Origin: Sistotremastrum niveocremeum HHB9708
Lineage: Eukaryota; Basidiomycota; Agaricomycetes; Sistotremastrales; Sistotremastraceae
Reading direction: 5' to 3'
DNA length: 64,000 bases
Assembly: GCA_001630475.1 (NCBI GenBank)
Contig: KV419437.1
Span: 186,001 to 250,000 of the forward strand
Shown here: positions 18,602 to 46,058 of the stretch, one piece after another
Numbering within the stretch: the stretch's first letter is position 1
Layout: every line of letters starts with the position of its first letter
Program-made: the position numbers and the translations under genes
Notes under the pieces: generated by a model
Database searches by the model: none
Seen by the model: only the letters and a program-made list of their open reading frames with translations
Told to the model about the DNA's origin: nothing

Positions 18602-21600
18602 ATGGCTGAAGACGTCGGTTCAGTGACTCAGTGTGATAAAGATGCTTTTGGACTCCCCTCCGACTTCTCAGAAGGTAGTTATGTGCCAAAAGATCTGGTT
18701 GATTTGAAATGTGAGCTCCAATTTCGTCAGTCTCTCTCGTTAGTCAAATCCCGCCACAGACATTATCCACCGTCTTTGTCAAAACTATGCTGTTGTACAT
18801 GATTTCAACATGGAGGAAGTCGTCAAGGCTGCGCTATCCCACGATCCGTCAATATCAGCGGAGACGCGATTTCGAGCATGGGGAGGATTCATGAAGACGA
18901 AATACAAAAACGTCCGGACGGAGGGTCAAATGTTTCCCTTTTCAAGGTAGCTTTAGCTTACGGTCTCCCAGCCTCGTCTTCCACTGAGCAGGGAACTGTT
19001 TCAAGACACCTGAGTCGTGCTATATCGGAAGGTCTCTCCCTCATGTGGACCCAAGAAGTCGAAAATCTGGAGTCCGATGGCATCAAAGAGTTGCTGCAAT
19101 CATATGCGAGGACTATTCCGGAAGCACGTGAAGACACCATTGTCGTGGAGCGGAATGCGATCACAGAAGGCGTGACTATGTCATCCAGCAAGATGCATGC
19201 TTTGCAGACAACTCTCACAAATATCACCAACCAAGTTCGTCTTCGTTGTGGTCTCTAATCAACAAAGTTTCTGACCGATCTCAGTGTACGCCACTTGCTG
19301 AATCCCATGCTCTGCGTATTTGTACCATAGGTACTATCGCGGACCCTGATGTCAGCGCCGCTAGGGGTGTTATGGTGTGCAGCAATCACACCGATGTAGA
19401 CAATTTCGTGTTAGGACCCGACTCTTTCAATGCGTTGGATCTTGGTAAGGTGATGAAACATTACTGCGAGTAAGTGCCACTCTCTTCTGGTTCGAATTTT
19501 TCAACCTGAAAGGACATAGGGCCCAAAGTCAGCGTGAACTTCTTGCTAGACTATCAAAATTCGTCGAAGCTTCAGGGCAGGATCTAACACAAGCTGCTCC
19601 CGATCCCATCTCACCCCTCACGCCTTCCACCTCTGCACTTGCCCTTGCCAATGATACGACCCCCTCAGTTGCATCCGTAGATGTTACTGCTGTTTCACCA
19701 ACACTTGCCTTGGATCTTCCTCGTGATCCACCCTCGAGTATAGCAAATCCTCGTCCTCAGAAGGTCGATCACCGGCCCTTAGATATCGTTCTCTTGTCAC
19801 AACATCTCAAACCAGAAGACCTACCCCAAGTGCTTCGCCTTGCTTGGCCGCGCTCGGAAGCCAAACAGCGAACATACAAAATGACCGAAGCTACCAAGGC
19901 GGCCATTACTGTTGCTCCTTCTGATTTCGTCAAAGACCCCGCGAGGAATACTTTTGATATCACTTTCGACAGGGAGCGCACGCGCCCGATGATCGCGGAA
20001 GTAATATATGGTGTCATTTGTAGGTCTCTTCACATAGCTCAATGGCATTAGCTAAGCACACTACTTGTAGGCAGTCCTCTTGGAATAAGGAGTTCATCAT
20101 GGCCTGCCATTCAAGACGCACTTTATGAGAAAGGGCTAGTTATTATCAACTGGCCCTACGGGACTCGCGCTTTCAACCAAACGAAATCCGACAAACCGAA
20201 CCAGCGCACAGGAGTAGAATTGCACCTTCTGCTTCATGCTTTCCTGCATCCAAACCCTGCAAGTCGCATCCAGCTTGTTTCCCGACACCATTGCGAGTCT
20301 TTCATAACACTACCGCAGAGAGAAAGTGCTGACATCTCCTTAGTTCCTCCCGACGCCCAACCTGCGTATTTCTCCTACATTTCATCGTACAAAGCAGCTC
20401 CTTCTGAGCGTGAAATCCAACGGGAAGATTACTTCCAACGACCGACTAACAAGCCGCATATCATCAACTATCCACCCGGGAAATGCCCTTGCAGTCTCGA
20501 GGGCTGCTCTCCCCCAGATCTCTCCGAATTTGCTGATTGCCTCGTCATCGAACCATCTTCCGACGAGGATGATGACGAGGAGGAGGACAGCGGTTCTGAG
20601 CATAACGAATTTGCCTTTGAAATCCCCATGAGTGGAGAAGACAGCGAAGTAGAACATTCATCAGCACCTCGGAGTCGCCTCAACCTACAGATGAAACAAA
20701 TGAAGGCGTCTATCCCTCCTCCTCCTCAATTCTTGAGCAAGAAAGTCAAGATCGAATCTCTTCCTCCTTCACTCAAACGTCAGGTACCGACAGATATAGA
20801 GCCGAGTCCGCGTCCAACACGGAGGTCACGCGCAAGTGAGCCGGATAAGCCAGCCTCGTCTGGTACACAGCGTCCTGTCACAAGGACATTGAGAAAAGCT
20901 GCATCTGTCAAAGCACATCCCTCGCCTGTTCTCTTGATGAGTGACGATGAAGGATCTCCTTCACCGAGTATGGTGGCCGGCCTTTCAACGAGAACGAGGA
21001 CTCGGCGTGCCACCAATGAGCAGAACACCACAACGGAGCGCAACGAGTCAAAGGACCCGGTTCCGTCTCGTGTGCGAACGCGATCTATCACTCAGCCGAA
21101 ATCTACCCAGCCCTCCTCATCGTCATCCTCACAAGGACCGCGTCTACGGAGTGACGCGAAACTACAAAAATCTGCGCAGCCTGATATCCCGAAAAAGTCC
21201 CTTTCTTCGACGAGCACCACACTTCCTGAGCGCAAGGGAACAGTCACTACACTTCGTCGCATTCGCCCCGCAAAGAAAGAAGTGACTACAGATGACCCTC
21301 CGCCTCCCCAGGCTCCTCTGCCATCCCAGCCGCAACAGCCTCTTCAATCATCGCCACCCCTGCATCATCCTCAACAGCTTCAATACAATCACCATTCCCT
21401 AGCTCCTCATCCATCCTCATCTTCTGCACATATTCAGTCTTCTCAGCAAAGTCAGCCATCACAGTCATCCCAACCTTCTGCACGCTCGCATCCCCAGCTA
21501 TCCTATCCAACTCAACCTTATGAATACATTCTCCCCTCTCGAGATTTGCCACCTCAGCATTACCCATACTACCAGCCTCCGCACTCACTACCGCCTCCAG

Positions 21601-22235
21601 CGAGCATCGGGTCTTCATCACGGCCTATGAGTGCTATGCATGATCAGCCTGTACTGCCGGGCGTGTCGTCCTCCTCTCAAACATCTTTCCAGCATTCGGC
21701 CGTTGACTCGCCAACACCCGATCTGGCCACAGCAGTCATCAGCGCTCGCACTTTCGTGGCAGGTTGCCAAACTTCTGACGCGTCATTGGTGCAACAACTC
21801 GTTGACATTTGTTTGAATCCTCATATACCTGTCGAGCCGGTATTTCCGCCTCCTACGGTGGACTTTTGGAGTGGTTGTATTGTTCATGCCAGGAGTGCGG
21901 GCGTCGAGGAGACATGGCTTATCAAAAGGACGCAGTTTTGGATCGAAAACATTTTGCGAAAGCCACATGTCCCGGTACAGATCATTGAACAGGTCTATCA
22001 AGCCCTTCGCAAGCTGGTCGAAGTGCTGCCCTCAGATACCCCGGAGCATTTACACCCCATCGTGAGTCGCATAGGGACGAAGCGCGGAGATTGGTGGATG
22101 CATGGACTATCTCCTTCGCCGTCCCAAGAGACGTACCACCTTGCACAGTCTGCGCTCGCTGCTGCGAATCTTGATCCTTCCTGGGTCAGCAGAATCCTGG
22201 CCCATTGGAAGAACATACTGCGACAGTCAACCTGA
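18602..22235 (+). CDS. Array paralog 1: long member with extra N-terminal domain
   Basis: Function unknown. Splicing gives 1107 residues from exons 18602-18710, 18760-18946, 19006-19234, 19285-19469, 19520-20019, 20071-20292 and 20344-22235; all join in frame. The first ~330 residues form a domain shared only with the 37.7 kb paralog at its start (GLPSDFSEGSYVPKDL, HRLCQNYAVVHDFNMEEV). The family module follows: LKPEDLPQVLRLAWPR, DFVKDPARN, LVIINWPYGTRAF, HPNPASRIQLVSRHH, PAYFSYISSY and CPCSLEGC. A very long linker has an acidic run (DEDDDEEEDSGSE), basic clusters (KKVKIES, RPTRRSRA) and a Gln/Pro/Ser-rich tract of about 130 residues, like nuclear regulatory proteins. The helical C-terminal domain ends at 22235. 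The intron after SRHH has a GC donor (20293-20343, 51 nt), unlike every other copy. A start at the ORF beginning at 20220 is unlikely, because the conserved module lies upstream of it. Confidence 0.82.
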
Positions 22236-23010
22236 CAGCATCCCGTTGTCGCAACCTTGATGAATATCGAATCCGGCTCGTCTTGTGGAGCAATTGGCCC
22301 AAAATTCTTGTGTTGCTTTCTTGTATTGTTCCTTTTCTTGCTCAAATATAGTTTATCTGTTATCTGTACTATTCCTTTGCTCTGTAGCTCTCTTGTCTAT
22401 TGTTGGGTTATTTATTTCCATGGCATAACTCCCTTTCCGCAAAAAGAAAGGGCTTTCTTCTCTGGACTGCAACAGGAAAGCCCCCCTCGGATTCCTATTA
22501 GAGGACTACGACCTGCTATCAGGACTGCCTGAGGGCGCTTCGCGCTATCGAGCAACTATGCAACTATGATTTCAGGGGGGCGTTTACCTGATGTGTTCAT
22601 CACTGTTGAACACGTTAACGTATGGAATTATTGGGTTTTCTCATAGCTGATAGTTTGCTTCTGAGCAAGCGAGTTATGCCAGGCGAGAACTGACAGAAAA
22701 TGGCTCTGTCAACCTGAATATATCATGGCCAGCCTCTCGTGTTTTGACTCTTGAGTGATCTGGAAAGAAGGCGGAAATCGGAGCAAGCATACAGAACCCA
22801 TCAGCTCCCCCATCACCCACTGTGCACGGATGCTCCTGATAGAGTAGTCTCATATTGCGCTTTACATCCTAGCCTGCACCAGATATTCTGTCAATTCCAC
22901 TGTATCTGATGCAAAGATTCAGTGAGGGCAACGTCCAATAAACAGCAACCACCGGCTTCCACTCGTTTGGAAGCTGACCTCCCAACTGCAACGATTAGAA
23001 AGGATTGAAG
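22236..23010. other. Spacer between array paralogs 1 and 2
   Basis: It contains the 3' untranslated region of paralog 1 (T-rich near 22310-22420) and no gene. The plus-strand ORF at 22257-22532 is hydrophobic and low-complexity, and I regard it as fortuitous. Confidence 0.55.
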
Positions 23011-23166
23011 CATGTCGATACCACGCAGTCGATACAGCGCTATTTCTCCGGGCGTGGATGTGTCTGCCAACAAGGAGAATGTGAGGGTTATCGCGCGTTC
23101 AGAGACGGTTCAAAGCCTGGAGGAAAACCTGTATCGTTCGTTGATCGCGACTGCCGCTTTGTGAGC
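23011..23166 (+). other. Possible upstream exon of array paralog 2
   Basis: An ATG at 23011 opens a 51-codon frame whose composition looks coding (SRYSAISPGVDVSANKENVR, then SETVQSLEENLYRS). A GTGAGC donor near its end and an acceptor CCAAG before 23218 would join it in frame to the main paralog 2 exon just upstream of its ATG at 23224. It is alternatively an unrelated upstream ORF. RNA evidence would decide. Confidence 0.35.
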
Positions 23167-23223
23167 TCCTTGCATACGCTCTATATTGCCCCAAGTTGCT
23201 AACAGAAACCAAGAAAAAAGCAT

Positions 23224-25162
23224 ATGGAGAATCGCCAGCATGACGCAGACCGGGCTACTCCTGCCGCTCTAAAGCTTCAGCGCCAGACATCGACTTCTAC
23301 CAGTGGAGGTGTCAGAGCCTCAGAGCCCACTGAAAGCCCTGGACTGACTCACGATGCTGCGACTGCGATTACACGTTATCTATCGCCCGACGACCTACCT
23401 AAAGTTTCGGAACATGTTTGGCCACGCGTAGCTGCTAAACTACAGCGTTTCAACTTTGCCGAGGCTGGAAGCACTATCCGTGAACTTGCAGCCCCCGGTG
23501 ATGGGTTCATAGAGGACCCCGACCGTGATCTCTTGCTGATCCCGCAATCCAGAGCAGATGGCATCCGTATCCTCGTCAAAATATTGACGAGAGTGTTCAG
23601 TAAGCTTGTCTTGTAGTGAACGCATTTCATAATTGACAAACAGCGATTGGGCCTTAGCTTCTGCCTTGGATTCACTACACAGAAGTCGCACCAAAGTGCC
23701 CCATTACTCGCTACAGAACGAATTAAGAGAGCACGGGCTCGTCATAATCAACTGGCCTTACGGGGTTCGTGCGGCTTTCTCAGTTCGTGCGGCTGCCTCA
23801 ACATACTTCGAGATGAAACGGTTAATAAGAGCTTTCCTTCATCCAAATCCCGCCAGCCGCGCCCAAGTGGTGTCTCGTCATCATTGTGAGTACATGTACA
23901 GCAATCATGTGTGTGGCGCGCAATTAATCATGCCACCAGTTCCTCCAGGAACTCATCCGGGCTACATATCATATGTTTCTTCTTTTGATGAAGATCCTCG
24001 AAAGAGAATCGTAGTAGACGAAGATTATATGCACGAAGACCCTCTACCTCCTCTTGTTCGACACCGGCCTGTAGGACAATGCCTGTGCCACCTTGCAACT
24101 TGCAATCCGCTTGACCTGTCAGATTTCATCAATGAGCGCAACGAGCTTGTTGACCCAGAGCCGAATGAGGATCTTGGCCCCAAGCATCCTGAGAAGAGGG
24201 CCAGCGAGGATCTTCCATCTCCGTCCCGACGCTCGAAACAAAAGAGTGATCCTCAACCACCCCCGCCACTACCCTTAAACAGCGATCCAGGGACACGGCT
24301 CCCAAATCACACCTTAGCAGCGGCTAAGTGGGCCAATTTGGCTTCTGATGGATTATCGCTGGTTCTGAATCACATGCCGACGTCCGACGTCCCCTCTGGC
24401 GCTCCGTCCATGCCTCTGGCAGCCTCTTCCCCTTCGCCTCCTCTGCAGTCGAATGTGCTCGAAGGAAACGGCGTGGAAGCCGATGCTGCTCCCCACGGCA
24501 GTCCTCATCCTCTGTCTGACGACAATTCCGCACCCGTCCGCGCTGCGGAAAGAATAGCATCTCCCCCCTCTGTAATCGACCTATGTTCTTCATCTCCCGA
24601 ACCGTTCGACCCAGCAGATCCTACCGAAGAGTTATCCGAAGCAATGACCAATGTCCGTAGCATACAGAAGTTGACGATCGACAACCGTGACAAAGAAGAG
24701 TTCGCATCGAAGATACTCAACAAGCTATCATGTATACCGCCCACCCCAGTCTTGCCGCCTCTGACCGAAAGTGACTGGTCCGATGTCGTTCAGCTCGCTA
24801 AGATCCATCACGTCGACGAAGCCTGGTTTCGAAACCGAATGAAGCAGTGGATCTCACATCTTCTCAAGATTTCGGTTGTACCGCTGAAGCATCTCGCTGT
24901 CACCGTCCGAGCCACTCAAAAGCTTGTCCAGGCTTTGAAACCTCATTTTGGGTCGAAGTTTGATCATGAAATCAAGGGTCGAATCTTGATGTGGTGGATA
25001 AACGTGATCCAACCGGGAGCGTCCCGGCGAACGTATAACGAAGCATGGTGCTTACTTGGAGAACTTTCCGACCTGCACGACCTTACTTGTGAAGACGCAG
25101 ACAAAATTGAAGTGTATTGGAAAGAGGTCTACCGACTCTCTTTGCAGGACTCAACACAATGA
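23224..25162 (+). CDS. Array paralog 2 (608 residues)
   Basis: Family of unknown function. Exons 23224-23599, 23658-23885 and 23940-25162 join in frame to 608 residues. The module reads LSPDDLPKVSEHVWPR, GFIEDPDRDLL, LVIINWPYGVRAAF, HPNPASRAQVVSRHH, PGYISYVSSF, IVVDEDYM and CLCHLATC. The linker is Ser/Pro-rich and contains VIDLCSSSPEPFD, which resembles a SUMO-interaction motif followed by acidic/serine residues. The C-terminal domain has CIPPTPVLPPLTESDWSDVV, WISHLLKISVVPLKHL and RTYNEAWCLLGELSDLHDL. Its middle exon is 228 nt, 15 nt longer than in paralogs 3-6, with an insertion after the INWPYG motif (Ala-rich instead of the FFEKR form). The start ATG at 23224 is the first in this frame; an extra upstream exon is possible. 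Confidence 0.82.
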
Positions 25163-25989: not shown

Positions 25990-26033
25990 GTACATAGTAC
26001 GATACGACTCCCCTCGAAGACTTGGGTCGGATT

Positions 26034-27778
26034 ATGGCCACCGCTGCAGTTACATACAATCTTAGCCCTTCTGCCCTCCAAAAATACCTTTCGATTGAGG
26101 ATCTGCCGCGAATCCCTGAGCATCAGTGGCCTCGTCAGGAAGCCAAACTGACGCGCTTGGGGACGTCGGATTGTGTGAATATTCCTTATGAAGTCTCCAT
26201 TCCCAGTACAGAATTTGTCAATGATCCGACCAACACCCATCGAAATCTCCCCGAGTTTACTGAAGAGAGAAGCAGAATGCTGCACGGACTAATCTCAAGC
26301 GTGCTTAGTCAGTCGTTTTCTAGTCTTGATAACACGGACATTGAACAGAATACATTCTCTAGCCGCGACTTTGGGATCTGGTCGCAGCCCCCACAAAAAA
26401 ATCCAAGAAACCTTGCATAAAAAAGGTCTCGTGCTCATAAATTGGCCATATGGCATCCGACCCTTCTTCGAAAAACGGGCTGCGGAATTGACGGGTACCG
26501 AGATGGCCCGGTTAATAAAGGCATTCTTGCATCCCAACCCCGCTAGCCGTATCCAGCTTGTTTCCCGCCACCATTGTGAGCACGCGCGATGATGTCCTCG
26601 TTGCTAGCAATTGTTTGATCCTATACCCAGTCTCTCGCGACACCCAGCCCGGATATATTTCATACATTTCGTCCTTCCACGAGGATCCCCGACAGAGGCA
26701 GATCATCGACGAAGACTACAATGAAACCCTGATTATTCCCTCCGAACCAATTATAGTCACCCCACCCCTCGGACGTTGTCGATGTCACCTCTCAAGCTGC
26801 AGACCCGTTGACCTATCCGGTTGGATCAATTTTGACAACAAAGTTGTGATCCCGAATTCCATTCAGGAGCCAGAACCCGTGCAAACGAGCAAAAGAACAA
26901 GCGATCATTTGGAGCCTGTAGATAATGAGGAAAAACGCCGACGCACCGTCGATCGTGTCATGCCAAAAACTCGGTTAGCATCGGGCTCGATGCCGCTAAA
27001 GACCTGGGCTTCCGACGGTTCCTGCAGAATCCTTCCTAAAAGCCAACCCACAAACTCTGATGACTCTGGCTCGTCACATTCTTCGTCGTCGGAAATTTCG
27101 GACCGTTCGCCAAATACTACTCTAGTCGATGGGATCGCGGGTTCGTCTAAGCAGCCTATAGACACCATCGAACCCACTCAGTCTGTGATCGACTTGACCA
27201 CCCAACCGACGCCATCTCAACAAATCAGCTACGCTATGATCGCTATCCGCGCTATACGGGACCCGAATGTTAACATCGACTTGGTTGGAAAGGAACGAAT
27301 GGTATGGACAATCCTCGACGGCTTGGAATGTATCCCGTCTACCCCGACGTTTCCGCCTGCAACAGAGAACGCCTGGTCCGATATCGTTGAACTCGCCTCA
27401 TCTCATATATTAGACTCGGATTGGCTTCCAGATCGATTGATGCGGTGGTTTTGCCACATCTTGGAGATCTGCACGGTCTCTATCGAGGATATCGTTGTTA
27501 CTATCCGAGCGGTCCGAAAACTATTGCACGTAACAAACGTTCCACTCAAGCAAAAGGTTATCGATGAGGTCGAGAGGCTTATTATACAATGGTGGGTTAA
27601 TCTTGTTCCATCCGGGACGTCAAGGAGTGTCTATAATCGTGCATGGTGTCTGCTGGGAGAACTTAGCGACCTTCGTGAGGTCACATTCCAGGACGAGGAT
27701 ACTATTCAGCTCTGCTGGAAAAAGGCTTTCCGACTCGGTATCGAACAGTCCAAGGACCGTGATCAGACGGCGCCGTGA
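26034..27778 (+). CDS. Array paralog 3 (544 residues)
   Basis: Family of unknown function. Exons 26034-26307, 26363-26575 and 26631-27778 join in frame. The module reads LSIEDLPRIPEHQWPRQEA, EFVNDPTN, LVLINWPYGIRPFFEKR, HPNPASRIQLVSRHH, PGYISYISSFHEDPRQRQI and CRCHLSSC. The linker contains basic stretches (KRTSDHLE, EEKRRRT) and VIDLTTQPTP, a textbook-like SUMO-interaction core. The C-terminal domain has CIPSTPTFPPATENAWSDIV, WFCHILEICTVSIEDIV and NRAWCLLGELSDLREV. Exons 2 and 3 have exactly the same lengths (213 and 1148 nt) as in paralog 4, and the two proteins are the most alike in the array, so this pair is probably the youngest duplication. The ATG at 26034 is used here, but possible upstream exons would bypass it. 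Confidence 0.83.
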
Positions 27779-28479: not shown

Positions 28480-30216
28480 ATGGAAAAAAAGCTTGACCCT
28501 TCCGTACTTCAAAAACATCTGTCCCCTGAGGAGCTCCCACAGATCGCTGACCACCAGTGGCCCCGTCATGAAGCGAAATTGACCCGCTTGCAATTGAGGG
28601 CTGTAGAAAAAGCAAACGCTGCCCATCAGGTCACTGTTCCTCCCGCAGGTTTTGTGAATGACCCCACTGAGGGTGAACCGCGTCTCCCCGAACCAACTGA
28701 GATGAGATGCAAGATACTGCAAGCTTTACTCGCTAGCCTGTTTGGTTAGTTGTCATCTAATAGTCTCAATGACGTTACTAATGAACACAATGCATACGCC
28801 AGTCACAACGTTGGAGTGGAGTCGAACCCCTCACAAACAGATGCAAGAGGCCTTGCACAAAAAAGGTCTTGTAATCATCAATTGGCCATACGAGATTCGG
28901 CCCTTCTTCGAAAAACGACCTGCAGAATTGACGGGTGTCGAAATTGGAAAGCTGATAAGAGCATTACTGCATCCTAACCCCGCTAGTCGTGTTCAACTTA
29001 TCTCACGCCATCATTGTGAGTGCATAGTGACCTTTCCGTCGCTTGAAAGTGGTTCACAGTGTCCCCAGTCTCTCGCGAAAAGCAACCCGGATATGTTTCT
29101 TACATTTCGTCTTTTCACGAGACTCCTCAAAAGAGACAGATCATCGATGAAGACTATAATGAGGACAATGATTCTCCTGTCGGACCATTGATCATAGTTC
29201 CTCCTGCTGGACGTTGTTCTTGTCACCTCTCAACCTGCAAACCCATTGACCTCTCTAAATGGATCAATATTGACAACACGGTCGTAATTCCAAAAACTAC
29301 ACAATCAGATTGCCCACGCAGAACGAAAAGGAAGAGTGATCATTTGAATTCCAAAAATTCCGAGGAAACAAGCAGTTGCAGCCTTGATCAGAATATGCCA
29401 AAAACTCGGTCGGCATCAGGATCGACCACCCCAAAACACAGGACTCCTGACGGGCCCTCCAAGGTCCCTCGCCTCAGCCAACACATCACAGCTGCTGAGT
29501 CCGGTCCGTCATATCCCTCACCATCGGCGGGAATCATAGAGCCCTCGCCGAATAGGACTTCGTTGGTTGGGACCGTGAGATCTTCTGCGCAGCCTGCTCA
29601 AACCAGTGAACCCAGTCAGCCTTTGTTTGGCTTGAGAAAGCGACTCGGACAGACGCCAGCTCAACAGATCGGCAAAGCCATGGTCGCCGTCCTCGCCATT
29701 CGGGACCCGAGCGTCAACATCGACTTTGCTGGAAAACAGGAGATGGTCTGGAAGATTCTCGACAGCTTGGATTGTATCCCACCCATCCCGACGTTTCCAC
29801 CAGCGACAGAGAACGCCTGGTCCGATATCGCAGAACTTGCCGCCTCTCATCATGTGGATTCGGGTTGGCTTCTGGATCGAATGGCGCGGTGGTTTAGTCA
29901 CATCTTGGAGATCTCCACTGTTCCCATTGAAGATCTCGTCGTTACCATTCGAGCGGTCCGAAAGCTATTGCACGTTGCAAATCTCCCGCTCAAACAGAAG
30001 TTTGTAGAAGAGGCTGAAAAACTTATCTTACGATGGTGGATCAATCTTGTCCCACCTACGGCATCGAGGATCGGCTATAATCGTGCATGGTGTCTGCTGG
30101 GTGAACTCAGTGACCTTCGCGACATCAATTTTGAGAACGAGGATACCATCCAGCTTTGCTGGAAGAGGGCATTTCGACAAGGCCTCAAAGAAGAGCATGG
30201 CCGAGCTGCACTGTGA
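28480..30216 (+). CDS. Array paralog 4 (541 residues)
   Basis: Family of unknown function. Exons 28480-28744, 28803-29015 and 29069-30216 join in frame. The module reads LSPEELPQIADHQWPRHEA, GFVNDPTEGEP, LVIINWPYEIRPFFEKR, HPNPASRVQLISRHH, PGYVSYISSFHETPQKRQI and CSCHLSTC. Compared with paralog 3, the INWPYG glycine is replaced by glutamate, and the VIDL motif of the linker is lost. The linker keeps basic runs (RRTKRKSDHLN). The C-terminal domain has CIPPIPTFPPATENAWSDIA, WFSHILEISTVPIEDLV and NRAWCLLGELSDLRDI. The stop is at 30214-30216. Upstream lies an MCB-like site and an open, stop-interrupted frame. Confidence 0.83.
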
Positions 30217-30585: not shown

Positions 30586-30599
30586 CTTTTACCACCTCA

Positions 30600-32242
30600 A
30601 TGTCTTCGAGCTCAACAGCATTGCTGAGCAACGGAGCTGCAGCCGCAAGTCTAAAAATTTCGAAAGCAACGCTTATCTCCCACTCGTCCCAAGGCCTGGC
30701 ATCTCTTACACCAGAAGATTTACCCCACATCCGCAAACGCAAATGGCCTCGCAAAGAGGCCAAACTCCCGCAGACCCGTCAGCGGACTAATCGCCTACTT
30801 TCCTGTCCTAAGGAGGGCTTTGTGTGCGACCCTTCGTGCACACCTCTCCATCTTCCACGTCTCCCTATTGATGTCAAGAATCTCTTAGGAGAAGTCTTGT
30901 ACAAGATCATCGGTCAGTCATCCTCTTTATCTCATGTTTAGGATCAGCTGAACCCAGGCCCAATAGGTCAAACTTTGAGAACATCTAACGTCCCGCACCA
31001 TAGACTGGAAGATTTTCTCCATCAGAAAGGCCTCGTTCTCATTAATTGGCCTTACCAAATCCCAGCGTTCTTTGCTAAAGGAACCGCGGCATTTACACCG
31101 GACGAGTCGATATTGCTGCTCAAAGCCTGTCTGCATCCAAACCCGGCTAGTCGAGTTCAGCTTATCTCTCGACACCACTGTGAGCCATCATGACCTCTTA
31201 CTCCTTGTATCAGAAGCTAATCTCCTCGCCGCTGGCAGTTCCGTCTGATAGACACCCTGGATACATATCTTATGTCTCTTCATATCATCAAAATCCTCGG
31301 CGGAGAGAGATCGTCGATGAAGACCACAACATAAAGGTCAAGATCTCTCCGGAGCCTCTCGTTGTTCACTATCAACCAGGCCGGTGCCCCTGCCATCTCT
31401 CGACATGTAAACCAATCGACTTCTCGCCCTTCATAGATTTCCAAATCGAAGACGAAGGAAATATCGATACGATCATAGGGATAACTCCGTTAAGTCCCAC
31501 CATCAAGAGGCCCAGGAAAGATTCAGATTCTGCAGACCAAACCAGAAGTGTCAAACAGAACACGGGAGTGACTTTGAACCATGCTACCTCCACCTCCGAA
31601 AGTTCGTTCTGTCCTGCGGCCACGCATGCAGCAGAGAGGTCGTCTTCAACTGCTCACGTTGATAATGCCCTGGGAGGAAACGCTGACCAGGGAATTACTG
31701 AGGCGCTGCAATATCCGAAAGGTTTCAGCACCGAGCCATGGGATACCGACGATAAACGTGAGTTGGGCCAGAAGACGCTGACCAAACTAGCATCCATTCC
31801 CTCCACTCCGCCCTTCCCGCCTTCAACGGACACCGCATGGTCGGACGTCGTGAAACTGGCAAAGCTTCACGAGATCGACAACGATTGGTTTGAAGACCGC
31901 ATGAGCCAGTGGATCTCACATATACTCGAGATTCCATTTGTCTTTCTAGACGATTTGCCGGCGACCATTTGTGCAATTAGAAAACTTCTCGGCGCAATGG
32001 ATGCTTCATTCCGAAAGAAGTATGCTGACCGTGTTGAAGCTCACATCAAAGATTGGTGGGCAGCTATCGAGGATTCCGATGCCACAGAAGAAGACTTTAT
32101 CGAGGCACTCGATCAACTGATCGGTTTAGGCGCGGGCCATGAAATCAAAATTGATGATGTGGTTGCAGACGAGGACCAGTCCAAGGACGGTCAGGAACCT
32201 GTACTATCACCGGATGGTGAAAGCCCTGAAGACAGTGGCTGA
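30600..32242 (+). CDS. Array paralog 5 (509 residues)
   Basis: Family of unknown function and the shortest full member. Exons 30600-30912, 30967-31179 and 31239-32242 join in frame. The module reads LTPEDLPHIRKRKWPRKEA, GFVCDPSCTPLHLP, LVLINWPYQIPAFF, HPNPASRVQLISRHH, PGYISYVSSYHQNPRRREI and CPCHLSTC. The phrase CDPSC (two cysteines flanking the DP motif) is shared with paralog 6 only, linking these two as sisters. The linker is short. The C-terminal domain has SIPSTPPFPPSTDTAWSDVV, WISHILEIPFVFLDDL and FRKKYADRVEAHIKDWW. It ends in an acidic tail (EDQSKDGQEP...ESPEDSG) in place of the NRAWCLLGELSDL block of paralogs 3 and 4. Confidence 0.83.
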
Positions 32243-32839: not shown

Positions 32840-34658
32840 ATGTCACTGAAGCCTACATCTCTAATCAGCATCGTCAACAACGAAGCCCCGAGAGCCCCAA
32901 AAGCCACTCTTGTTTCTGGTTCCTCCCTTAACTCCCTCACGCCAGAAAATCTGCCTCGCATAGCCAAGATTGAATGGCCCCGTAGCTCTGCACAGTTGAA
33001 GCGTTTCCGTAAGATGGAGTTTCCTTTACCGAGTCGCGTAGTTTGTCAAGTTACTTGTCCTGGCGAGGGCTTTGTGTGTGACCCAGCATGCTCTTCTATC
33101 GTTCTCCCAGAATCATCTTTCGACGTCCGGGAAATCTTGCGGATGGTGTTATCATGCATACTTAGTCAGTTGTCCGTTTTGAAAGCGTGCATTGGGCTGA
33201 CCCGGAGCCAAATAGCTGAGACTTTGAGCACTCGTGCTATGCCTCACACAACAATCGAAGAAGTCTTACACAAGAAGGGCGTCGTTCTTATGAACTGGCC
33301 CTATGGCGCCCGAGGGTTCTTTGAGAAAACACCTCTCACATTGTCGATGCATGAGCAGAGAACATTGCTGGAGGCATGCCTTCATCCAAATCCAGCCAGT
33401 CGCATCCAGATTGTTTCTCGTCATCATTGTGAGTGACTCAAGCGTCGCACTAATAGTGTCATTGATCACAGAAATTTTCTCTTTAGTTCCATCCGACGCC
33501 CAGCCTGGATATTTTTCATATGTCTCGTCTTTTCACGAGGATCCTCGCCAAAGAGAGCTTGTTGACGAAGAGCACCATAAATCTTTCGAAATCCCTCCTG
33601 AACCGTTTATTATCCACTATCAGGATGATCAATGCCCTTGCCACCTCTCAACGTGCAGACCCATTGACTTCTCCGCCTTCGTAGATACCGAAGCCGATGG
33701 GCCCGTTGGGAAAGATTCAGGCTCGGATGCCACGAAACCTACTATTAAGAGGGCTAGGAGTAATCCAGGTTCTCTGGATCAAATAAGGAGCGTCAAACAA
33801 AAAACTGAGAGTAGTGCGGACATCTCATCGAGCCAGCCGCAAACTGGACGTGCCGGAGCCTCCGCACCTCATATCTCTCCGAAAGTGGCCAGATCCACAG
33901 CCTCCACGTCACTGACTGCAAGCCATTCTTCCGTCTCTGCCCCTGGGAACAAATCTACAGCCCAGGTGGATCACTTCGAAATCGTGTTCAAGTCTGCGAC
34001 TAATCCTTCGTCACAGAACTCCTCTTCAACTTCGCAAAAGGCAGGCAGCACGAGTTCCCTGACGTCTCTCTCCGACTCTGTGCTATCTGGCTCAACTCGG
34101 GAGATAACCGATGTGATGCAAAACCTGAAAGTTTTTAGCACTCTGTCGTTCGATGCCAACGATAAACGTGAGTTAATCCATAAGACACTCAACAAACTCA
34201 CATGCATTCCATCAACCCCTCTCTTCCCGCCTTTAACGGAGAACGCGTGGTCCGCCATCGTGGAATTGGCAAAGCTACATCAGATTGATGATTGCTGGCT
34301 TCGAGACCGTATATCCGGGTGGATATCTCACCTTCTCAAAATTTCCTCCGTTTCTCTGGACGATTTGCCCGTGGCCATTCGCGCAGTTAGGAAACTTCTC
34401 CGCGCCATGGACACTCCATTCCGAAAGAAGTACACCGCGGACGTCGAAGCTCGCATGAAAGTTTGGTGGGAGAACGTTGTGGATTCAGAGACTACAGAAG
34501 AAGTTTATGTCCGGGCCCTCGAACAGCTCATTGACTTTGGCGCATGCAAGGAAATCAAACTTGAGGATATGGCTGCAGTCAAGGACCACTGGACGGACGT
34601 CTATTACCCTGCATCATCCTCGGATTGCGATGATGACCAACTTGAAGAGAGCGATTGA
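32840..34658 (+). CDS. Array paralog 6 (569 residues)
   Basis: Family of unknown function. Exons 32840-33164, 33216-33428 and 33487-34658 join in frame. The module reads LTPENLPRIAKIEWPRSSA, GFVCDPACSSIVLP, VVLMNWPYGARGFFEK, HPNPASRIQIVSRHH, PGYFSYVSSFHEDPRQREL and CPCHLSTC. A long Ser/Thr/Ala-rich linker with a basic patch (TIKRARSNPGS) follows. The C-terminal domain has CIPSTPLFPPLTENAWSAIV, WISHLLKISSVSLDDL and FRKKYTADVEARMKVWW, and ends in an acidic tail (SSSDCDDDQLEESD). Shared CDPxC, the same C-terminal rearrangement and similar promoters mark it as the sister of paralog 5. Confidence 0.83.
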
Positions 34659-35452
34659 GTGCACCATCTCACGCCGAGCAGTCGATGCGTACTGCGCACA
34701 GCCTTTCAACTTCTTTCTGGACCCGTTGAGAGCGAGTTCTTATTTATTCTAAGTCCAGCCTGTGTTGTGGGTCACTTTATTTCATATGCATGTTAGGCAC
34801 CTGACCAACGTTCGGCCGGGTCGCAAACGCCACCCCGTTCTTTGTTATCTACGCTTTGTCTCTTTCCAATCGCGCGCTTTCCTTCCTGTTAATTCTTTGC
34901 TGTATTGTAGACCTTTATAATTCAAACTCCTCATCCTTTCTACGATTTTCCATGCGTCATCGCAACTACTGCCCGGCTACTGTCAGACAGGGAATCCTCC
35001 ACGCGCTCGATCAGGCCGGTAGTGCGCATTCCAAACGTCCACATCACCCGCGTATTTTGTGTTCTAATTGACACGCATGGGAAATATATTGTGCGATACT
35101 TGCCTGCTATGTACAACGAGTCAAAGAATGCACCGACAAATATAAAACTTTCGAGAGCAACAACTAGTGGAATCCTTCGCGCCCGCGCAGTACCCATACG
35201 GCCCATACCACTGAATAGTTCAGAATCAACAAGCCCGTGCAAGTGCGGATTCTGCGCTGCTTCTGAGAGACTGTAAACCATTCGCGGAATTAAAAGGGGA
35301 AAATGCGCCGAGTCGGACGCTCCTCGTATTAGCAACAGTGCTAAAGGGTCTCAGACGCGCTGCGACGATGATCGGCTGGAGGTCGACATACTGAGTATAT
35401 AAAGATAGCATTCAAGGCAGTTTAGAGACCATCCGAACCCCAAGCCATAATC
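34659..35452. other. Spacer between array paralog 6 and the NmrA-like gene
   Basis: 3' flank of paralog 6 and promoter of the NmrA-like gene. A TATATAAAG run lies at about 35396-35404, some 50 bp upstream of its ATG. No gene seen. Confidence 0.5.
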
Positions 35453-36813
35453 ATGTCCTCAACGAAGAAACTGATCCTCGTCATCGGCGCAACGGGCGCC
35501 CAAGGCCGAGCAGTGATCGACGCGCTGCTATCGCCGGCAGCTGACGGCACGACGTCACCGTACGCTGTCCGAGCTCTGACGCGAAATTTAGAGTCAGCCT
35601 CGGCAAAGGAGCTTGAGGCCATTCCAGGTGTCGAAACGTTCAAAGGTAAGTCGTACATCCGGAGCCATAGTAGCTGGATAGATGATGGAGATCCGGTCAT
35701 ACAGGTTCGTTCACGGACTTTGATGCTGTGTTCAAAGCTTTGGAAGGGTGTTACGGAGCGTATGTGAACACCGATGGCTTCACCGAAGGCGAGCAGACAG
35801 GTATGAGTGTCAATTTTGGCAGATTACACGGATCCTAGAGTTGTCTCAGAAATCTACGCTGGCCTCCGAATTTTTGAGCTGGCAAAGCAGAGAGGGACGT
35901 TGAAACATTACGTCTGGAGTAATCTGGATTATTCGCACAAGGTGAGATCCATGCTCCGGAGACAGTGTAGTCCACATCCTGACGAAAAGCATAGAAAAGC
36001 GGATATAACCCGAAATATCGATGCGAGCACTACGATGGTGAGTGGTTCCTGCAACCAGCCCCAGCGACCGTCAATGTATCGTCTAGGCAAGGGCAGAGTT
36101 CTCGAATTTCTTCGAAGCCAGTCAAGTGATATCGACGGCATGGTCTGGTCTTCATTGACCTCCGGTCCGTACATGGAGATGCTGAAAAGCGTGAGTCGAG
36201 AGCGGTGTCATGAATACCAAGTCCTGATTTGAGGTATTTCCAGCCTATGTTTGGTCCATCGCTTCGAGATGATGATGGATCGTTCATATTTGCCGCACCT
36301 ATGGGAACGGGCCATGTTACGATGATCGCCCTCAAAGACTTGGGATACTTTGCGCGATACATCTTTGACCACCGAGAAGAATACACTGGCAAAGATTTGG
36401 AAGCCGCTTCTGAACTTGTCACCTGGCCCAATCTGGTCGCAGCTTTCAAGCGCGTCACCGGAAAGCCAGCCAAGTTTATCGATGCGCCCCTTGAGTTGTG
36501 GTTCCAGCTCCTTCGAGATACTGACAGGCCTGTTGCCAACAAGCTTCACGAGTCAGAGAATGCAGCCCAGCATACCTCTTGGGAGAAGAACTTCACTGCT
36601 TGGTGGAGTCAATTCCACGATGGCATCCTCGCCAGAGACATGTCTTACCTTAAATCCATTCATCCTGGGTTGCGAAGTGTAGAGGCATGGATGATCGAGA
36701 ATCAATACGACGGGTCGTATAAGCCCGTGCTGAAAAACTCGGCGGAAGGCAAGTCGGTCTCCTTCAATGCGGAAGGAGTGTCGGCAGTTTTGGCCAAGCT
36801 CAAGGCCATCTAG
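35453..36813 (+). CDS. NmrA-like NAD(P)-binding family protein
   Basis: This is a Rossmann-fold protein of the atypical short-chain dehydrogenase group (NmrA/HSCARG/isoflavone reductase-like), cytosolic, acting as a redox sensor or reductase; the substrate cannot be told. The N-terminus LILVIGATGAQGRAVIDALL carries the GxxGxxG-type dinucleotide motif, and RALTRN follows at the expected NADP-preference position. Later exons give SFTDFDAVFKALEGCYGAYV, LKHYVWSNLDYS, GYNPKYRCEHYDGKGRVLEF (joined across an intron near 36.04-36.09 kb) and WSSLTSGPYMEML, typical of the family. The C-terminal exon 36241-36813 completes the substrate domain. Introns are short and GT-AG. The gene is intact and has no relation to the array in which it sits; a TATA-like run lies about 50 bp before the ATG. 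Confidence 0.85.
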
Positions 36814-37682: not shown

Positions 37683-40600
37683 AATGACACAACGAGGAAT
37701 GCGGTGGTTGACGTCTTAGGTTTCCCTCGAAACTTCAGAGATAGTGCATACGTAGCAAAGGATCGTGATACGTTAAGAGGTGAGAGCAATTCAAATCAGT
37801 ATAGCTGATGTCAGCTTACTTCCGGCGGAATCTCTGATAACTATCCTTTGTCTGGCACCATAGATATCGTGGTTCGACTTATGCAGAATTATTGTGCCAT
37901 ACACAAAACCGACATGCGGGAATTACACCGTTTCCTTCGGGAGGACGAAGAGGAACCTTCTATGCCAAAAATGGCTTGGCTTAGCTTCTTCAAAGAAAAC
38001 TACGCTCTTGCCTTGCGTCAAGGTGGGGGCGTTTCATTCTGTCTTCTTGTTCGCTCACCTCAACTCAGTCACCGCAGTTGAAGGAAGATCGAGCGGCCCA
38101 ACGTCATCCTCAAGTCATGACATCTCGAAAATGATGCAAAGGCTTCTGGAAAGCAAGATATCGACATCCGGGAAGCATCAGTTTCTTCAGACCTATGCGT
38201 ATCCCTACCAATCCGTAGTCAATAAGGTTACTCATTGTCATGGTTTTATTCTCGTACTAAAACATGCTACAATTGCTAGTTTTGGCGATATCCATTCCGA
38301 GCCCTCCGAATCGAGGAATTGCCTATCCCGACCGGTAAAACATGGCCAAGAAATCGCCCTACCCGCCGAACAAAAGCAGGTGCTAACATCACCGCACGCA
38401 CAAATCTATTGGAACGACCAGTCAATTTTGTGGAAGATCCAGCCAACGAACAACTCAATGAGATCTTCAGTAGATTGAACAGGGCCTCTGCCCGCGTCTT
38501 TGCGAGGCGAATTTTCAATGCTATTTGTAGTCAGTCTCCATTCATCTATTCGTCTATCATTCGATCTAATCCACGCTGTCAAGATGCTCCTCTGAATGGT
38601 TCTCAGAGCCAAATGTTATGGAGAAATGTCGGAGAGGCGCTTCAAAAGCGAGGTTTCATCATTCTGAACTGGCCGTACGGAACCCGAAGATTCGTAAGCG
38701 ACGATAAAGACAAACTCAATCAGCGCTCGGTTTCAGAACTGCGAGTCATTATTCAAGCTCTTCTGCATCCAAACCCATCAAGTCGTTTGCAGATAGTTTC
38801 ACGACATCATTGTAGGTCGTTGAAGTCAATTCATCGATCCCCATACTGACTCTGCCTAGTTGCTGGAAAGAAATCTGAAAGCCCAGGCTATATCACATAT
38901 GTAACCGCCTTCAAACCTGTGCCTTCCTCCCGGGTTATAACCGAGGAAGACCATTTTGTCCAGCCATTGGACGCAGGACGTTCAGACAAGGTTCCACCAG
39001 CTCCACCAGTTATCAATAATGCGCGTGGGCACTTGAAGTGCCCATGCAATCTTTCACAATGCACCCCTTTAGACCTTGGCCCGGAGATTAGGAAAATCGT
39101 CAAAGGACTCGCCCTTGAAGGAGCATCGCCGGATGCTGGTACTTTCGATTTCCTTTCACCTTCAGATCTTCCTCGTATTCCGCGGCGTCCTTGGCCTCGT
39201 ATTACTGGTCGGATGACACGATATACGCCGATAGACGAGCACTTGTCCTACTACGTTGCTCAGCCACCCGAGCACTTCCTGGAAGACCCCGTCAATGGAC
39301 AGCTGGACTTGTCTAAGTTATCACGTTCTGCCTCAACTGCGGCTTTCTCCAAGATAATGATCATGGTTATAGGTATAGTCAACCAATTTGCGTCCCTCCC
39401 GTGACAATTTGACAAATTTTCAAAACTTTCATCTAGGCGATCCGCTTGGACAACAGTGTCTTCCATGGAAGACGAAATTGCAAACCATGTTGCATGACGC
39501 CGGCCTTGTGATCATCAATTGGCCTTATGGGACTCGGCGTTTTAACGACGCTGAACGTGACAGACCAATATGCAGAACTCTCAAAGAACGTACCCTGATT
39601 CTCACGGCGGCCATGCACCCAAATCCCGCGAGCCGGCTTATGGTCGTCTCACGCCATCACTGTAAGAATTTCATATCGGTGTACCTGCTATTGCGAATTT
39701 ATACATCGTGCACAGTTCCATCTGGTTCTGAGCCTGCATACATAAATTATCGGACGTCTTATTCTGAGACCGCCACGGATAGAACGGTCTCTGATGAAGA
39801 TTTTTTCGTCGTACCCAGTTCGAGACCCATCATCAAACGCTACAAGGATGGAGAATGCCCTTGTGCCCTATCAACTTGCAGTCCCCCTGACTTAGTCACA
39901 TGTCAGCAGATTCTCAACGGCCAATATGTTGGTGGTGTTGGCGGACCAACCATCGGGGACGCTCGGGAGCCTTCTCCCTGTCATGACAGCGATGCCACAA
40001 GCTCCGATCTCGAGTCCGCAGACGAATCTCAGCCTGAAAATGCTGCATCCTCTCACAGATCTCAGCCAGCGGCTGCGAAAAAAAGACGTGCACCAGGCAC
40101 TGACTCTGAAGCTAAGCGACCGAGAACTCGGCGTCGTATAGAATTTGCCCAAGATGCCGAGAGCGTCGCTGAGGCAACATGGAGTGGGGAAGACGCGCCG
40201 TCATCCGGAGAGGAAGATGAAGTTGTTGAAGTCGCTGCTGCGAGTGCCGGAGCGAAAGTGGACATTTCTACCGCTACAAAATACGCCAACGAAGCTCGTC
40301 GTCTTGCGAAGAAGAGTGGGGCTAGCCTCAAAGCTGTGAAGCAACTCGTAGACGAGATTTACGCGAAACACATCCCAAAACATCCTCCTTTTCCGCCCGA
40401 CGGTCCTAAGGACTGGGCAGATGTATATATCAGCGCCAAATCCGCTGGTGTGGACAGTGCGTGGCTTTCAGAGCGCATGCTTGGATGGATCTCCAAAATA
40501 CTTGCCCGCGACACCGTCCCACTATCGGTCATTGTCCGGGTGAGCCGAGCTCTAAAGAATCTCGCATTGGCTTTAGGAGATGAGACACACTTGGAATACC

Positions 40601-40812
40601 TCGATAAAGTCAACCAAGCAAATCGGAAATGGTGGCTTGGAAGTATCACGCTGTCCTCATCTGCCTCTGAATTCGCCAACGCGATGACGCTTCTCTTGGA
40701 GGCGAATGCACGAGGTGAACTGAATTTTCAAGAACAGCAGGAAATTGAAGACCACTGGAAAAAGAGTTGGAGGACGGGTCTCAGAAAATTTGGTCCAAAG
40801 TCGAAAGTGTAA
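37683..40812 (+). CDS. Array paralog 7: two fused modules plus N-terminal domain (904 residues)
   Basis: Function unknown. Exons 37683-37779, 37864-38022, 38078-38226, 38280-38526, 38584-38811, 38860-39372, 39437-39661 and 39716-40812 join in frame. The start (GFPRNFRDSAYVAKD, VRLMQNYCAIHKTDMREL) matches the extra N-terminal domain of paralog 1, with the first intron at the same place. Module 1 has EELPIPTGKTWPR, NFVEDPANEQL, FIILNWPYGTRRF, HPNPSSRLQIVSRHH, PGYITYVTAF and CPCNLSQC. About 40 residues later, in the same exon, module 2 begins: LSPSDLPRIPRRPWPR, HFLEDPVNGQL, LVIINWPYGTRRF, HPNPASRLMVVSRHH, PAYINYRTSY and CPCALSTC. Then come a basic linker (KRPRTRRRIEF), an acidic stretch (SSGEEDEVVEV) and the helical C-terminal domain (WISKILARDTVPLSVIV). 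Module 1 lacks its own linker and C-terminal domain. Confidence 0.83.
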
Positions 40813-43800
40813 TTGTGCCACAACGGGAAATGGCGATCAATTACAGATGACAGTGCGTATAGCCGTAGCTTTTGTTACATTTGCACGACGATCCAATCCT
40901 AATGCTGCTATTGTGAAATGTACTGTATGATGGGGAAGCCACGCATGTGGACGGCTTGTCAGAATCTTGATTAACACTCCATTGTCAAACTCTCTTCGAT
41001 AATGCAAACAGCTTGATCAGTTGACATACGACCTGAGTCAGGAGAAAAGACGATCACCCCCAGCTTGAGAGTGCCCAGAGACTGACGCAATGGCATTATT
41101 GTTTTAGAGTCACTGTGAGCCCTGGCGCGGGGGATAAACAACGCAAAACAACGTCCGAACGTTGATTGCGGTCGGATCAGCGTATTCGGCTGAACGACGC
41201 GACTTGAGCCAACAACTCCAAATTCGCTAAGTCCAGCTCGAAACCCCTCAGCCGGCATGTTGTGATTTCGAAGCGAAATATATCATTGATTTTCAAGCGC
41301 TCCTTTAAGGGAAGATATGAATTTATGTTAATCATTGGAATATACAGGTTCAAAACGAGTGATCCTCGTGAAGGAATGGCGTAGATACAAATTGATAGAC
41401 GAAGGGGGAGTATTCCTAGTCATATCCTACGGGCGAGCCAATGATGATGCGTCAAAAGCTGGCTTTCAGAACGAAAGAAGATCGTGCGTACCCTGTGATT
41501 ATTGGATATTGCTGATTTCTCTCCTTTCCCCAATGCTACACTTCCTGGAGCCTAAACCAAACCCGCCAAACAAACTGACGTAGGGCGCGTAAGCTAAGTG
41601 CAGAATTGATTTCCTCCAGAGGAACAGCGTTGATGGGGTGAGAGTGGCCCGTTCTTGACGGTATAGATCTGAGGTTGAGATGAGGACTTTCTGAGGCAGC
41701 GAGATAAGGTTTAATAGCATGGACAGAGAGGCTTGCTAGAAGACAGCGAGGAGCCGATGAGACCGTCGTTGGACATGTCGATTTCGAGAGAAAGGTTCGG
41801 CGAAGGCCGTATTAGCCGAGTCATGTGATCGACGGTTTCAACTTGGGCCAAACACAGATCAACACTCTCCTCGTCTTTTCTTCACCACCACCACTGCTAC
41901 CAACCACCGTAGGCCCCGAGCCTCGCTTTTCGTAATACTCGACCTCTGTTTCCTCCAGACCCCGACCGACGCTCCAGCATCACCGCCAGACAGCCCTTCA
42001 ACAATCCCAGCTTGACCCCCGCCCCTCTTCGCCGGTCGCCAACGACTAAGCCAACGACGCTAGATTGCCCGACTCTGCCAAGCCATTGCGCTCAGGGTGC
42101 TTTTTGACCTTCAAGACTACTTAGAAGGAGCCCCCACATACTGCCTTCCGGTGAGTCTCTCTGTGCGTTCGCTTCCACAAGCTATTAATATCTAAACCTG
42201 TGAAGCAGTTTCTTTCGCATTATCTTAGGGCATGTGAGTTATGCCCGTTGAAAGTTTACGACAAATGTCTCATGCTCCCTTCTCCCAGAGTCCATCGGCT
42301 TCAGCAAATTCTTGACAGTGGAAGAGTGTGGGATGGTGATGACTGTCTGGGCGAAGGCCGCGGGAAAGAGTGGATCTGAGGCGGAAATATGCGTTTGAAG
42401 GTTGCGGGAATGCCGGAGAGGACTCTTTGCAAGTTTTAGGACATTTACTGTACTTAGAACTATTAGAGTCATCAATAATACTGATTTTTATGATTATTAC
42501 TACGTGATTTCTCTCATGACTTCAAGTACAAAACAGTGTCAGAAACAGCCACAAAACGTCCAAAAGGCGGCTCTGGATGGTCTAACCGAGATCCTAGATA
42601 CGCTGAAGAGCGACACTCAGACTAAGATTTTAAGTGTGCAAACGAACAGGGATGTTCACGGACTAGGGCTACATTTTCGGGAACATTCGAGTGGTTCGGC
42701 TGTGACATACGCGTGACCGTCGGACCTGAATATCCGTGCTGCGAGGGCTCACAGTGAGTGTGACAGGAAGTTTGGACAGATCGCAGATTAGGACGTCAGG
42801 TGGTAGAGCTCCTTGTGGCCGCTAATACGTCGGGGGCGTCCCATATTGAGCGCCTCGCAGCTGATGTTGATGATGGCTTGCCACCACTGCATTGAGTTCG
42901 TTCCCTACGTTTTTCGGCCTGATAATTAGCCCACAGTTCCCTTGCTGTACGAGTTGTGCCTTGAACCCTTGCTTCACGTCATAATACATCAAATCGCTGC
43001 GTTGCATCTCGTGGTAGGCAGCGATCAAAATGAGGCGTCCGGAAGGAAGAATAGCCACGTAAACCATCGTGAGGTTTGTCGAGCGTCTTCCCAGGTGTAG
43101 ACCGAGTGTTCGTCATCGCTGCGACCAGGGGACACGAAGGTCCTGGGTTGAAGATCTAGTCCACAACTCTTCCTTCCCGCGCGCGATTAGGCTGTCTTGC
43201 TAAAATGCCTGCAAGATACAGGATGCGGCAGACTGTTCAGGAGTGCGGGGCCGAGAGATTGACAGACTTACTAGTAAAGAGATGTCTGAGAAACACGTTG
43301 TTGAACTTCGACATCAAATGATAACAAAGCGCGTTCAGATAGCGGAGATCATGGCGAGAATGAAATGAATGGTCAAGTGAGCTATTGACCCTGCCAATGG
43401 ACCCTGCACGTCGAGTCGAAGTCGCAGGTATCGGAATCAAATCGGATCATCGGAATGCTGAAGCGTTGTTGACACTTGTTGTCCATTAACCTCTTGAGCT
43501 CATTCTTGGAGGGATCCACAACGAAAGGGCTAGCGCTCATGATCAGTCTGATGTCAATCCATTTTCTTCAGGGTCTGTATGGCGCATGATAAAAGTGCAT
43601 GGAATTGTCCCACAACTGTGTTTTCACCTCCTAAGGAATGTTGGATGAAATTCATGGAATGCAGCTTCTATGCTTTTCTGCTACTGTAATGTCGACTATG
43701 ATCTCAAATTTTGATTCTTCCTGCTATGGGAGATCAAATTGTAAGGCTCCAACAACACGAAAAATTGTATGTATCAATGATCTGCTTAGTATTGTGCTGC

Positions 43801-44141
43801 TGATCGACGTCACAGACATTCGATTCATCATCAAAAGGCAAGGACGGCTTCAACCTCGTCCAGCTGATTGGGCAGCGTTCCCTTTGGACAGCGATATATC
43901 GGTTGATGTGCCTAATGCACCTCGATGCCAGTCCACGCTGTAGCTTCTAATTTAGCTTAGGGCCACCTTATCTGTTCCTGCTTCGGCCCGCTAGTCGCGA
44001 AAGTGGAAAGATCCAAGTTCGACAGCAATCTTGAAATACATTGAATCAGCTCTCTCAAGTTCCAGCTAATCCCCCCCCCCTGCTGATCTGCTTGGAACAT
44101 AGTGACAGATCATCACTTGTTGTCCTGGCAGACACCATCTC
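40813..44141. other. Degenerate zone inside the array
   Basis: 3.3 kb without a complete gene. Fragments that look partly coding are a minus-strand ATG ORF at 41258-40971 (95 codons), a minus-strand ATG ORF at 43067-42822 (ILPSGRLILIAAYHEMQRSD) and a plus-strand ORF at 43638-43943. At 41.87-42.24 kb the plus strand looks like a pyrimidine-rich fungal leader with an intron (GTGAGT...CTTAG) ending in an ATG followed by GTGAGT, but no downstream exon is recognisable. It is best read as relics of displaced genes. Confidence 0.35.
44071..44080 (+). repeat. C10 homopolymer
   Basis: Ten consecutive C bases upstream of array paralog 8. Its length may be a sequencing-sensitive site; it is non-coding. 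Confidence 0.9.
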
Positions 44142-46058
44142 ATGAGCTCACCGCCTCAACTGTGCTACATACTGGTACCTCCGCGGGTATCCTCAAAGCA
44201 TTCTCAGACAACTGAAACGACAGCAGAGTTCGCTCAGATAGGGTATGTTACAATACACTCTTTCGGATCCTAATAGTAGTCTGACCAATTACCTAAAGGA
44301 TTATGAGTGGAAGTTCAACATGCCCACCTCTGGCCTTACCCGTGGTTTCTTCCACTATGGATCAGCCTCGAATAGAGACATCACTGGCTTCATTCCTGAG
44401 GGTTGATGATCTACCTCAGACACGTCTTGAAGCTTGGCCATGGGGTACACAGGTGCTACGGGACGATCACTGCGGAACGCTTCCTCCGCCGGGCTTCATT
44501 GACGATCCTCAAGATCAAGCGCTGAGTGACCCAGGTACTCATGACCAACATCGCGCGATTCTGAAACGATTATTTTCCCTTGTCATCAGTGAGCGTTGTG
44601 ATAGATTCCGTTGCGTCCATCATATTCTGACGCGAGCCGGTGCTCCTTGCAGAAACTCGATTAGATATTGATAGAGTCACGGTGGCATCTATACAAGAGG
44701 GTCTGCGGAAGCAAGGCATGGCCCTTATAAATTGGCCTTACGGCACTCGGGATATATTGTTACGTCCACCGATGATTCTCTCCAATGACGAGTTCCGTAT
44801 CATCATTCGTGGATTTCTTCACCCCAACCCCGCAAGTCGAATACAGCTTGTTTCGCTGCATCATTGTGAGTGTCGTATTCCGCTGAATTTTCCAATAGGG
44901 GCTGAAATCGGCTCCCTACAAGTTCCCAAAGACTCACACCCGGCGTGTATATCTTATCGAACTTCTTATGATCAAGTCTCCTCACACCGACTCATCACGC
45001 AGACCCAAACCGATGGCCGTAGCAGTGCCCCAGGTACTGATACTATTGATCCTCAGGAATGCAGTTGCCATTTAGCGACTTGTTCACCCCCAAATTTCGC
45101 GGGTTTCGTTCGAGGGAACGAGCTTATATATGAAAACGTTTCACTTTCCCCGACCCCAAGCCATGTTCAGGATTCCAGCGATTCCTCTTCAGAGATTATG
45201 AGTCCCGGGGACGGAAGTCCATCGCTGCATGAACTTCAGGCGATTCGAGCTGGAAAAAAGCCCGCGAGGGCTGACGACGATGGCCGTTCACACACGATGC
45301 TCGAGTCAGACGGTGGTCACGATCTCCAGGATAGCCTATATACCCCGACCAGAGAATCTGTTGCGGACGAGCCACGAATCGTATCCAGTTCTCAAGCCAC
45401 TACTCCAAGTTTGGCACATAATCCGTCCGACGAGCACAGCAGCATGGATGTGGACTCTGGTCTCAGAACTGCCTCTGGTACAGACAAAAATGCACCGAGA
45501 GATGATGACTTCAAAGTCAAGCTCGCCGCCGCGGCAGATTATGCACAGCGCACACGCACCCTCATATTGCAGGGCATCTTGGAACCCAATTTGGGAGCCC
45601 AAGTGATTGAAGAAACATTCAATGGTCTCATACCCAGACATCCTAATTTCCCGCCTCCTAATGAGGAATATTGGGAGAAACTCCTTTGCGACGCAAAAGC
45701 CGCGGGAATGGGAGCAGACTGGGTCTCCGGACGTATCAAGGATTGGATCTCGCACATTTTAGATCGAGAGACCATCGACATTTCGGAAATCATTCTTGTC
45801 ATTAAGTCCCTCGCCAATCTCATCACTCTCGCCGATGTTCCTACGCAAAACGAGGCTTTTGCGAAGGTGCAGGAGACTATGCCTAGGTGGTGGCTTGGGA
45901 TGATATCCTCATCTTCGAGTGATGCTGATCTTGGCCATGCGTACAAGATTCTTTGGCAAGCCCAGGCATGCGATGTTGTCACCAACGAGGACCGCGAGGA
46001 GATCGTCAAGGCTTGGATGAAAAGTCTCGCGTCCCGCGGTCCGAGTTGCGAGCCATAA
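44142..46058 (+). CDS. Array paralog 8 (579 residues)
   Basis: Family of unknown function and the most diverged copy. Exons 44142-44242, 44299-44588, 44653-44865 and 44923-46058 join in frame; the first intron has a perfect GTATGT donor and CTAAAG acceptor, so I prefer the ATG at 44142 to that at 44303. The module reads LRVDDLPQTRLEAWP, GFIDDPQDQAL, MALINWPYGTRDI, HPNPASRIQLVSLHH, PACISYRTSY and CSCHLATC. WPR has become WPW and SRHH has become SLHH, but the His pair and all three cysteines remain. The linker is Ser/Asp-rich with HSSMDVDSG. The C-terminal domain has IPRHPNFPPPNEEYWEKL, WISHILDRETIDISEII and RWWLGMISSSSSDADL, closest to paralog 7. It lies apart from the other copies across the degenerate zone. 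Confidence 0.82.

Follow-up and report, generated by a model that had tools for sequence, protein, structure and literature searches.

What kind of protein is encoded by a tandem array of fungal genes with a common rigid core and without a name in any searched library? We have addressed this question for an array of Sistotremastrum niveocremeum HHB9708, located at positions 18602-46058 on the plus strand of a window of 64,000 nucleotides (nt), the whole stretch analysed (contig C44:186001-250000; the genome comprises 34.7 Mb on 111 contigs; coordinates below are window positions). The array contains nine copies of a module in eight genes, one gene carrying two modules, and the family is tentatively read here as lineage-restricted and probably nuclear, with a core that would bind a ligand and may be metal-stabilised, a probably disordered linker and a helical tail for docking, expanded in tandem. 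The initial annotation, made from the sequence alone, had proposed eight genes with a nine-fold module and ordered motifs on the plus strand, and both proposals are confirmed: a 53-nt stretch encoding HPNPASR through SRHH occurs nine times (at 20245, 23838, 26528, 28968, 31132, 33381, 38764, 39614 and 44818), the frames are stop-free, the genes look intact, and modules 7a and 7b are continuous. The genes and their parts are as follows.

18602..22235, plus strand: gene 1; ATG set at 18602, frame by eye, upstream exons not fixed; exon A ends 20019, exon B 20071-20292, last exon 20344-22235 (core, long linker, C-terminal domain)
about 18744-18947, plus strand: conserved N-terminal segment of gene 1
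20079..20552, plus strand: core of gene 1 (modelled copy), read through the in-frame intron
23224..25162, plus strand: gene 2; exon A 23224-23599, exon B 23658-23885, last exon 23940-25162
26034..27778, plus strand: gene 3; exon A 26034-26307, exon B 26363-26575, last exon 26631-27778
28480..30216, plus strand: gene 4 (NWPYE), a close pair with gene 3; exon A 28480-28744, exon B 28803-29015, last exon 29069-30216
30600..32242, plus strand: gene 5 (NWPYQ); exon A 30600-30912, exon B to 31179 (acceptor ambiguous), last exon 31239-32242
32840..34658, plus strand: gene 6, which pairs with gene 5; exon A 32840-33164, exon B 33216-33428, last exon 33487-34658
37809..40812, plus strand: gene 7, two-module; N-terminal segment inside 37809-38078, true start not fixed
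Gene 7 module a, plus strand: exon A ends 38529, exon B 38584-38811, exon C from 38860, stop-free into exon A of module b
Gene 7 module b, plus strand: exon A ends about 39372, exon B 39437-39661, last exon 39716-40812
44303..46058, plus strand: gene 8 (SLHH); exon A 44303-44588, exon B 44653-44865, last exon 44923-46058
27197..27775, plus strand: C-terminal eight-helix domain of gene 3 (modelled copy)
21708-22232, 24605-25159, 29641-30213 and 31682-32239, plus strand: C-terminal domains of other genes
34092-34655, 40240-40806 and 45501-46055, plus strand: the remaining C-terminal domains

A module takes in exons A and B together with the beginning of exon C. The exon B/C intron, 48-59 nt long, lies directly after SRHH at the same position in all nine modules, and the spliced cores align across this junction. 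Its donor is GT in eight modules and GC in gene 1, where a GC-AG intron is apparent (20293-20343), the eight other modules having GT-AG introns. Reading CE as protein after SRHH was rejected, as SRHHCE exists in the raw frame only; CE is intronic and the spliced product reads SRHHF. For the exon A/B intron an in-frame solution is available at the matching position in 9/9 modules, the best-scoring choice being 51-64 nt in eight of them; in gene 5 the intron is ambiguous (45, 54 or 99 nt), and in module 7b the donor is weak, with 3/6 consensus bases. The region from 38.3 to 40.8 kb is taken as one two-module gene because module 7a reads in frame into exon A of 7b. Genes 1 and 7 carry an extra N-terminal segment.

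Conservation is concentrated in the core. The initial annotation had listed motifs common to all copies, which is strictly the case for C-x-C-x4-C (9/9 modules), whereas the others tolerate single-copy variants: NWPYG is exact in seven of nine (NWPYE in gene 4, NWPYQ in gene 5), HPNPASR in eight (HPNPSSR in module 7a), SRHH and WPR in eight each (SLHH and WPW in gene 8) and P-x-Y-x-S-Y in six, with variants in 7a, 7b and 8. A spliced alignment of the nine array modules with one module from contig C39 has 18 invariant columns. Over 12 modules, the nine of the array and three from single-module genes elsewhere in the genome, 17 columns are invariant: Asn19-Trp20-Pro21-Tyr22, His52, Pro55, Arg58, Ser63, His66, Phe67, Pro73, Tyr78, Cys114, Cys116, Leu118, Cys121 and Pro123. 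The predicted helical C-terminal domain is found after eight of the nine modules but not after 7a. In gene 3 this domain yields a confident eight-helix model, with a predicted local distance difference test score (pLDDT) of 92, for which comparison with the PDB gives no clear relative. The earlier description of tandem paralogs with a rigid core and diverged linkers is supported.

Searches for a known family were made with defined pieces. The Pfam scans covered the N-terminal pieces, the cores, the last exons and the C-terminal domains, but not exon A of module 7b; NCBIfam was scanned with the C-terminal domain and PHROGs with the core. No match above cut-off or below E 0.008 was obtained in Pfam, NCBIfam, PHROGs or the PDB sequences, in agreement with the absence of a named family noted initially, and nothing was confirmed in IMG/VR or prokaryote genomes. 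Up to E 5, ten segments and ten cores gave no zinc-finger Pfam match, C2H2 included, and nine C-terminal domains gave no match to the RNA polymerase II carboxy-terminal domain (CTD)-interacting domain (CID). The family is unnamed in the tested libraries, and 'undescribed' holds only as far as those.

The family extends beyond the array to three further single-module genes and one tail copy on other contigs; as the genome was searched with single proteins, these counts are lower bounds. The three genes form a second subfamily (C39 at about 90 kb, C37 at about 76 and 97 kb); once spliced, their frames stop soon after the core, without a C-terminal domain. That the 76-kb copy on C37 might be a broken gene was considered and rejected, since splicing removes the counted stops and leaves an open core. 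The two C37 genes (L075, L076) are close copies that lie about 20 kb apart, and by eye their surroundings also look duplicated. The tail copy, at about 154 kb on C13, has an open frame of 330 residues whose C-terminal domain shares 49% identity with the gene 2 tail, and no decayed core was found beside it.

about 5573-6562 of L024 (C13:148001-157500), minus strand: C13 tail copy

The core and the tail are therefore separable units, the second subfamily lacking the tail and the C13 tail lacking a detected core. Searched with its N-terminal segment, the C39 gene finds the two C37 genes and has a weak match on C27 at about 143 kb (E 7e-5); by eye the segment is perhaps present twice in the C27 match (L078, C27:142301-143900, minus strand). 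In the module tree the two subfamilies split with support of 100/100 and the C37 copies pair at 98/95, support being moderate for genes 3-4 (85/90) and 5-6 (81/88), with the other groupings unresolved.

Combined, these observations are consistent with a mechanism in which the rigid core, containing one invariant His and the C-x-C-x4-C block, could bind a metal ion and would recognise a nuclear ligand, either nucleic acid or a chromatin protein. After the last module, a variable and probably disordered linker, often with a basic motif resembling a nuclear-import signal, would lead to a compact eight-helix domain that probably docks onto partner proteins, linker and tail determining which partners are bound. 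Tandem duplication may have given paralogs with different partners or targets, and the duplicated copies may have been retained by selection. The basic motif K-K/R-x-K/R is present in six of ten linker rows against 0.81 expected, a count reached in 0/5000 shuffles, and in 8/12 rows against 1.31 expected when the two C37 copies are included. We regard a lineage-restricted, probably nuclear family of this kind as the leading possibility, held tentatively. It is a more doubtful proposition that a new metal-stabilised domain for binding nucleic acid or chromatin makes up the core and a new fold family the tail, both restricted to a fungal lineage, so that the array would represent an unnamed class of tandem-multiplied fungal regulators.

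Several results weigh against a nuclear binding family. Neither core nor tail has a match to a nuclear or DNA-binding family or structure, and the similarity between tail and CID is too low to discount a shared helix arrangement alone. The structure prediction proposed for the core succeeded in part: in the gene 1 model, taken in ten-residue blocks, the first 70 residues reach pLDDT 71-80 but the rest falls to 33-56, with the Cys part below 50 and a mean of 57. Because of this poor model, a metal site is not visible and structure comparison of the core is uninformative. The K-K/R-x-K/R motif is a consensus picked after the linkers were viewed; it is missing from 4/10 linker rows (module 7a and genes 2, 4 and 8), the 7a row is mostly exon A of 7b and not pure linker, the rows are not independent of each other, and in a cruder K/R density test only three of ten linkers reach P <=0.05 against their own shuffles. 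Between genes 1 and 7, the N-terminal segments show 30% identity (28.9 bits) in a three-sequence comparison alone; a genome search with the gene 1 segment returned a self-match only, and one with the C39 segment recovered neither the gene 1 nor the gene 7 segment. The module tree is weakly resolved, with two of its nine inner branches starred and five open, and 8 and 7b are long-branched. Most pairs are saturated for the ratio of nonsynonymous to synonymous substitution rates (dN/dS), the gene 5-6 core included, leaving few in which it is measurable.

The rival explanations have a lower probability than the nuclear family. Linkers and tails that diversify for different ligands would be expected of self/nonself or antiviral receptors, and the tandem array, the strongly diverged linkers, paralogous C-terminal domains with identity as low as 19% and the several loci of the family in the genome are in keeping with such a role. 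The initial annotation had similarly likened the array to fast-evolving recognition or defence genes. For genes 3-4, dN/dS is 0.21 in the core, 0.22 in the C-terminal domain and 0.45 in the linker (dS about 0.9), and for genes 5-6 it is 0.32 in the C-terminal domain (dS about 0.9); the remaining finite values, 0.14-0.75 at dS 1.8-3.0, are less reliable. The few measurable pairs are under purifying selection, and no finite value exceeds 1, although domain-wide averages could mask a few fast sites. Values of this kind give no sign of strong diversifying selection. The exon B/C introns show 58% identity over 53 aligned bases in pair 3-4 and 49% over 43 in pair 5-6. No NACHT, HET, TIR or similar immune domain was found in the Pfam-scanned pieces, and none of the 25 listed STE3 pheromone-receptor matches lies on the array contig C44, the at least 25 matches listed for the genome being on contigs C13 and C35. 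A recognition or defence role is considered unlikely.

An enzyme family, in which Asn-Trp-Pro-Tyr, His, Arg and His, all invariant, would form an active site and paralogs would differ in substrate, agrees with the invariant polar residues of the core, yet no enzyme family scored above cut-off in the Pfam scans and we rate this explanation somewhat lower again. Domestication from a mobile element is the least probable of the alternatives. Copies are spread over several contigs and the C-x-C block is reminiscent of basidiomycete KDZ cysteine clusters, but few copies were found (the counts being lower bounds), no transposase is among the Pfam matches of the scanned pieces, and that both introns can be placed in all nine array modules counts against retroposition.

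Exons near the array have matches to WDR36/Utp21, to a subunit of the proteasome and to a helicase of SPB4 type. Genes 6 and 7 are set apart by an NmrA-like gene on the plus strand, which interrupts the array.

35426-36810 (end approximate), plus strand: NmrA-like gene; Pfam match for exon 35426-35764 only, remainder from open frames

Lineage-restricted tandem gene families are already known as a kind; this one combines a core under strong conservation with a tail modelled at high confidence, neither of which is named in the tested libraries. If the core were a new nuclear binding domain, it would allow hypothetical proteins of fungi to be labelled, and the paralogs would form a set in which the diversification of regulators can be tested.

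Three known systems invite comparison. The likeness to the CID concerns the C-terminal domain of the array proteins only. Basidiomycete KDZ transposases have associated cysteine clusters and, like these, the array family consists of fungal multicopy proteins with a C-x-C motif; it differs in giving no Pfam match to such a cluster, models of which are presumably present in Pfam, and in having no transposase in the scanned array pieces. Transcription factors with zinc fingers also occur in tandem clusters, as in the mammalian C2H2 and insect ZAD-ZNF genes. The array is without a C2H2 Pfam match, its candidate site being a His plus C-x-C-x4-C, a putative arrangement, whereas tandem expansion is common to both, and the array, too, has a candidate Cys/His site.
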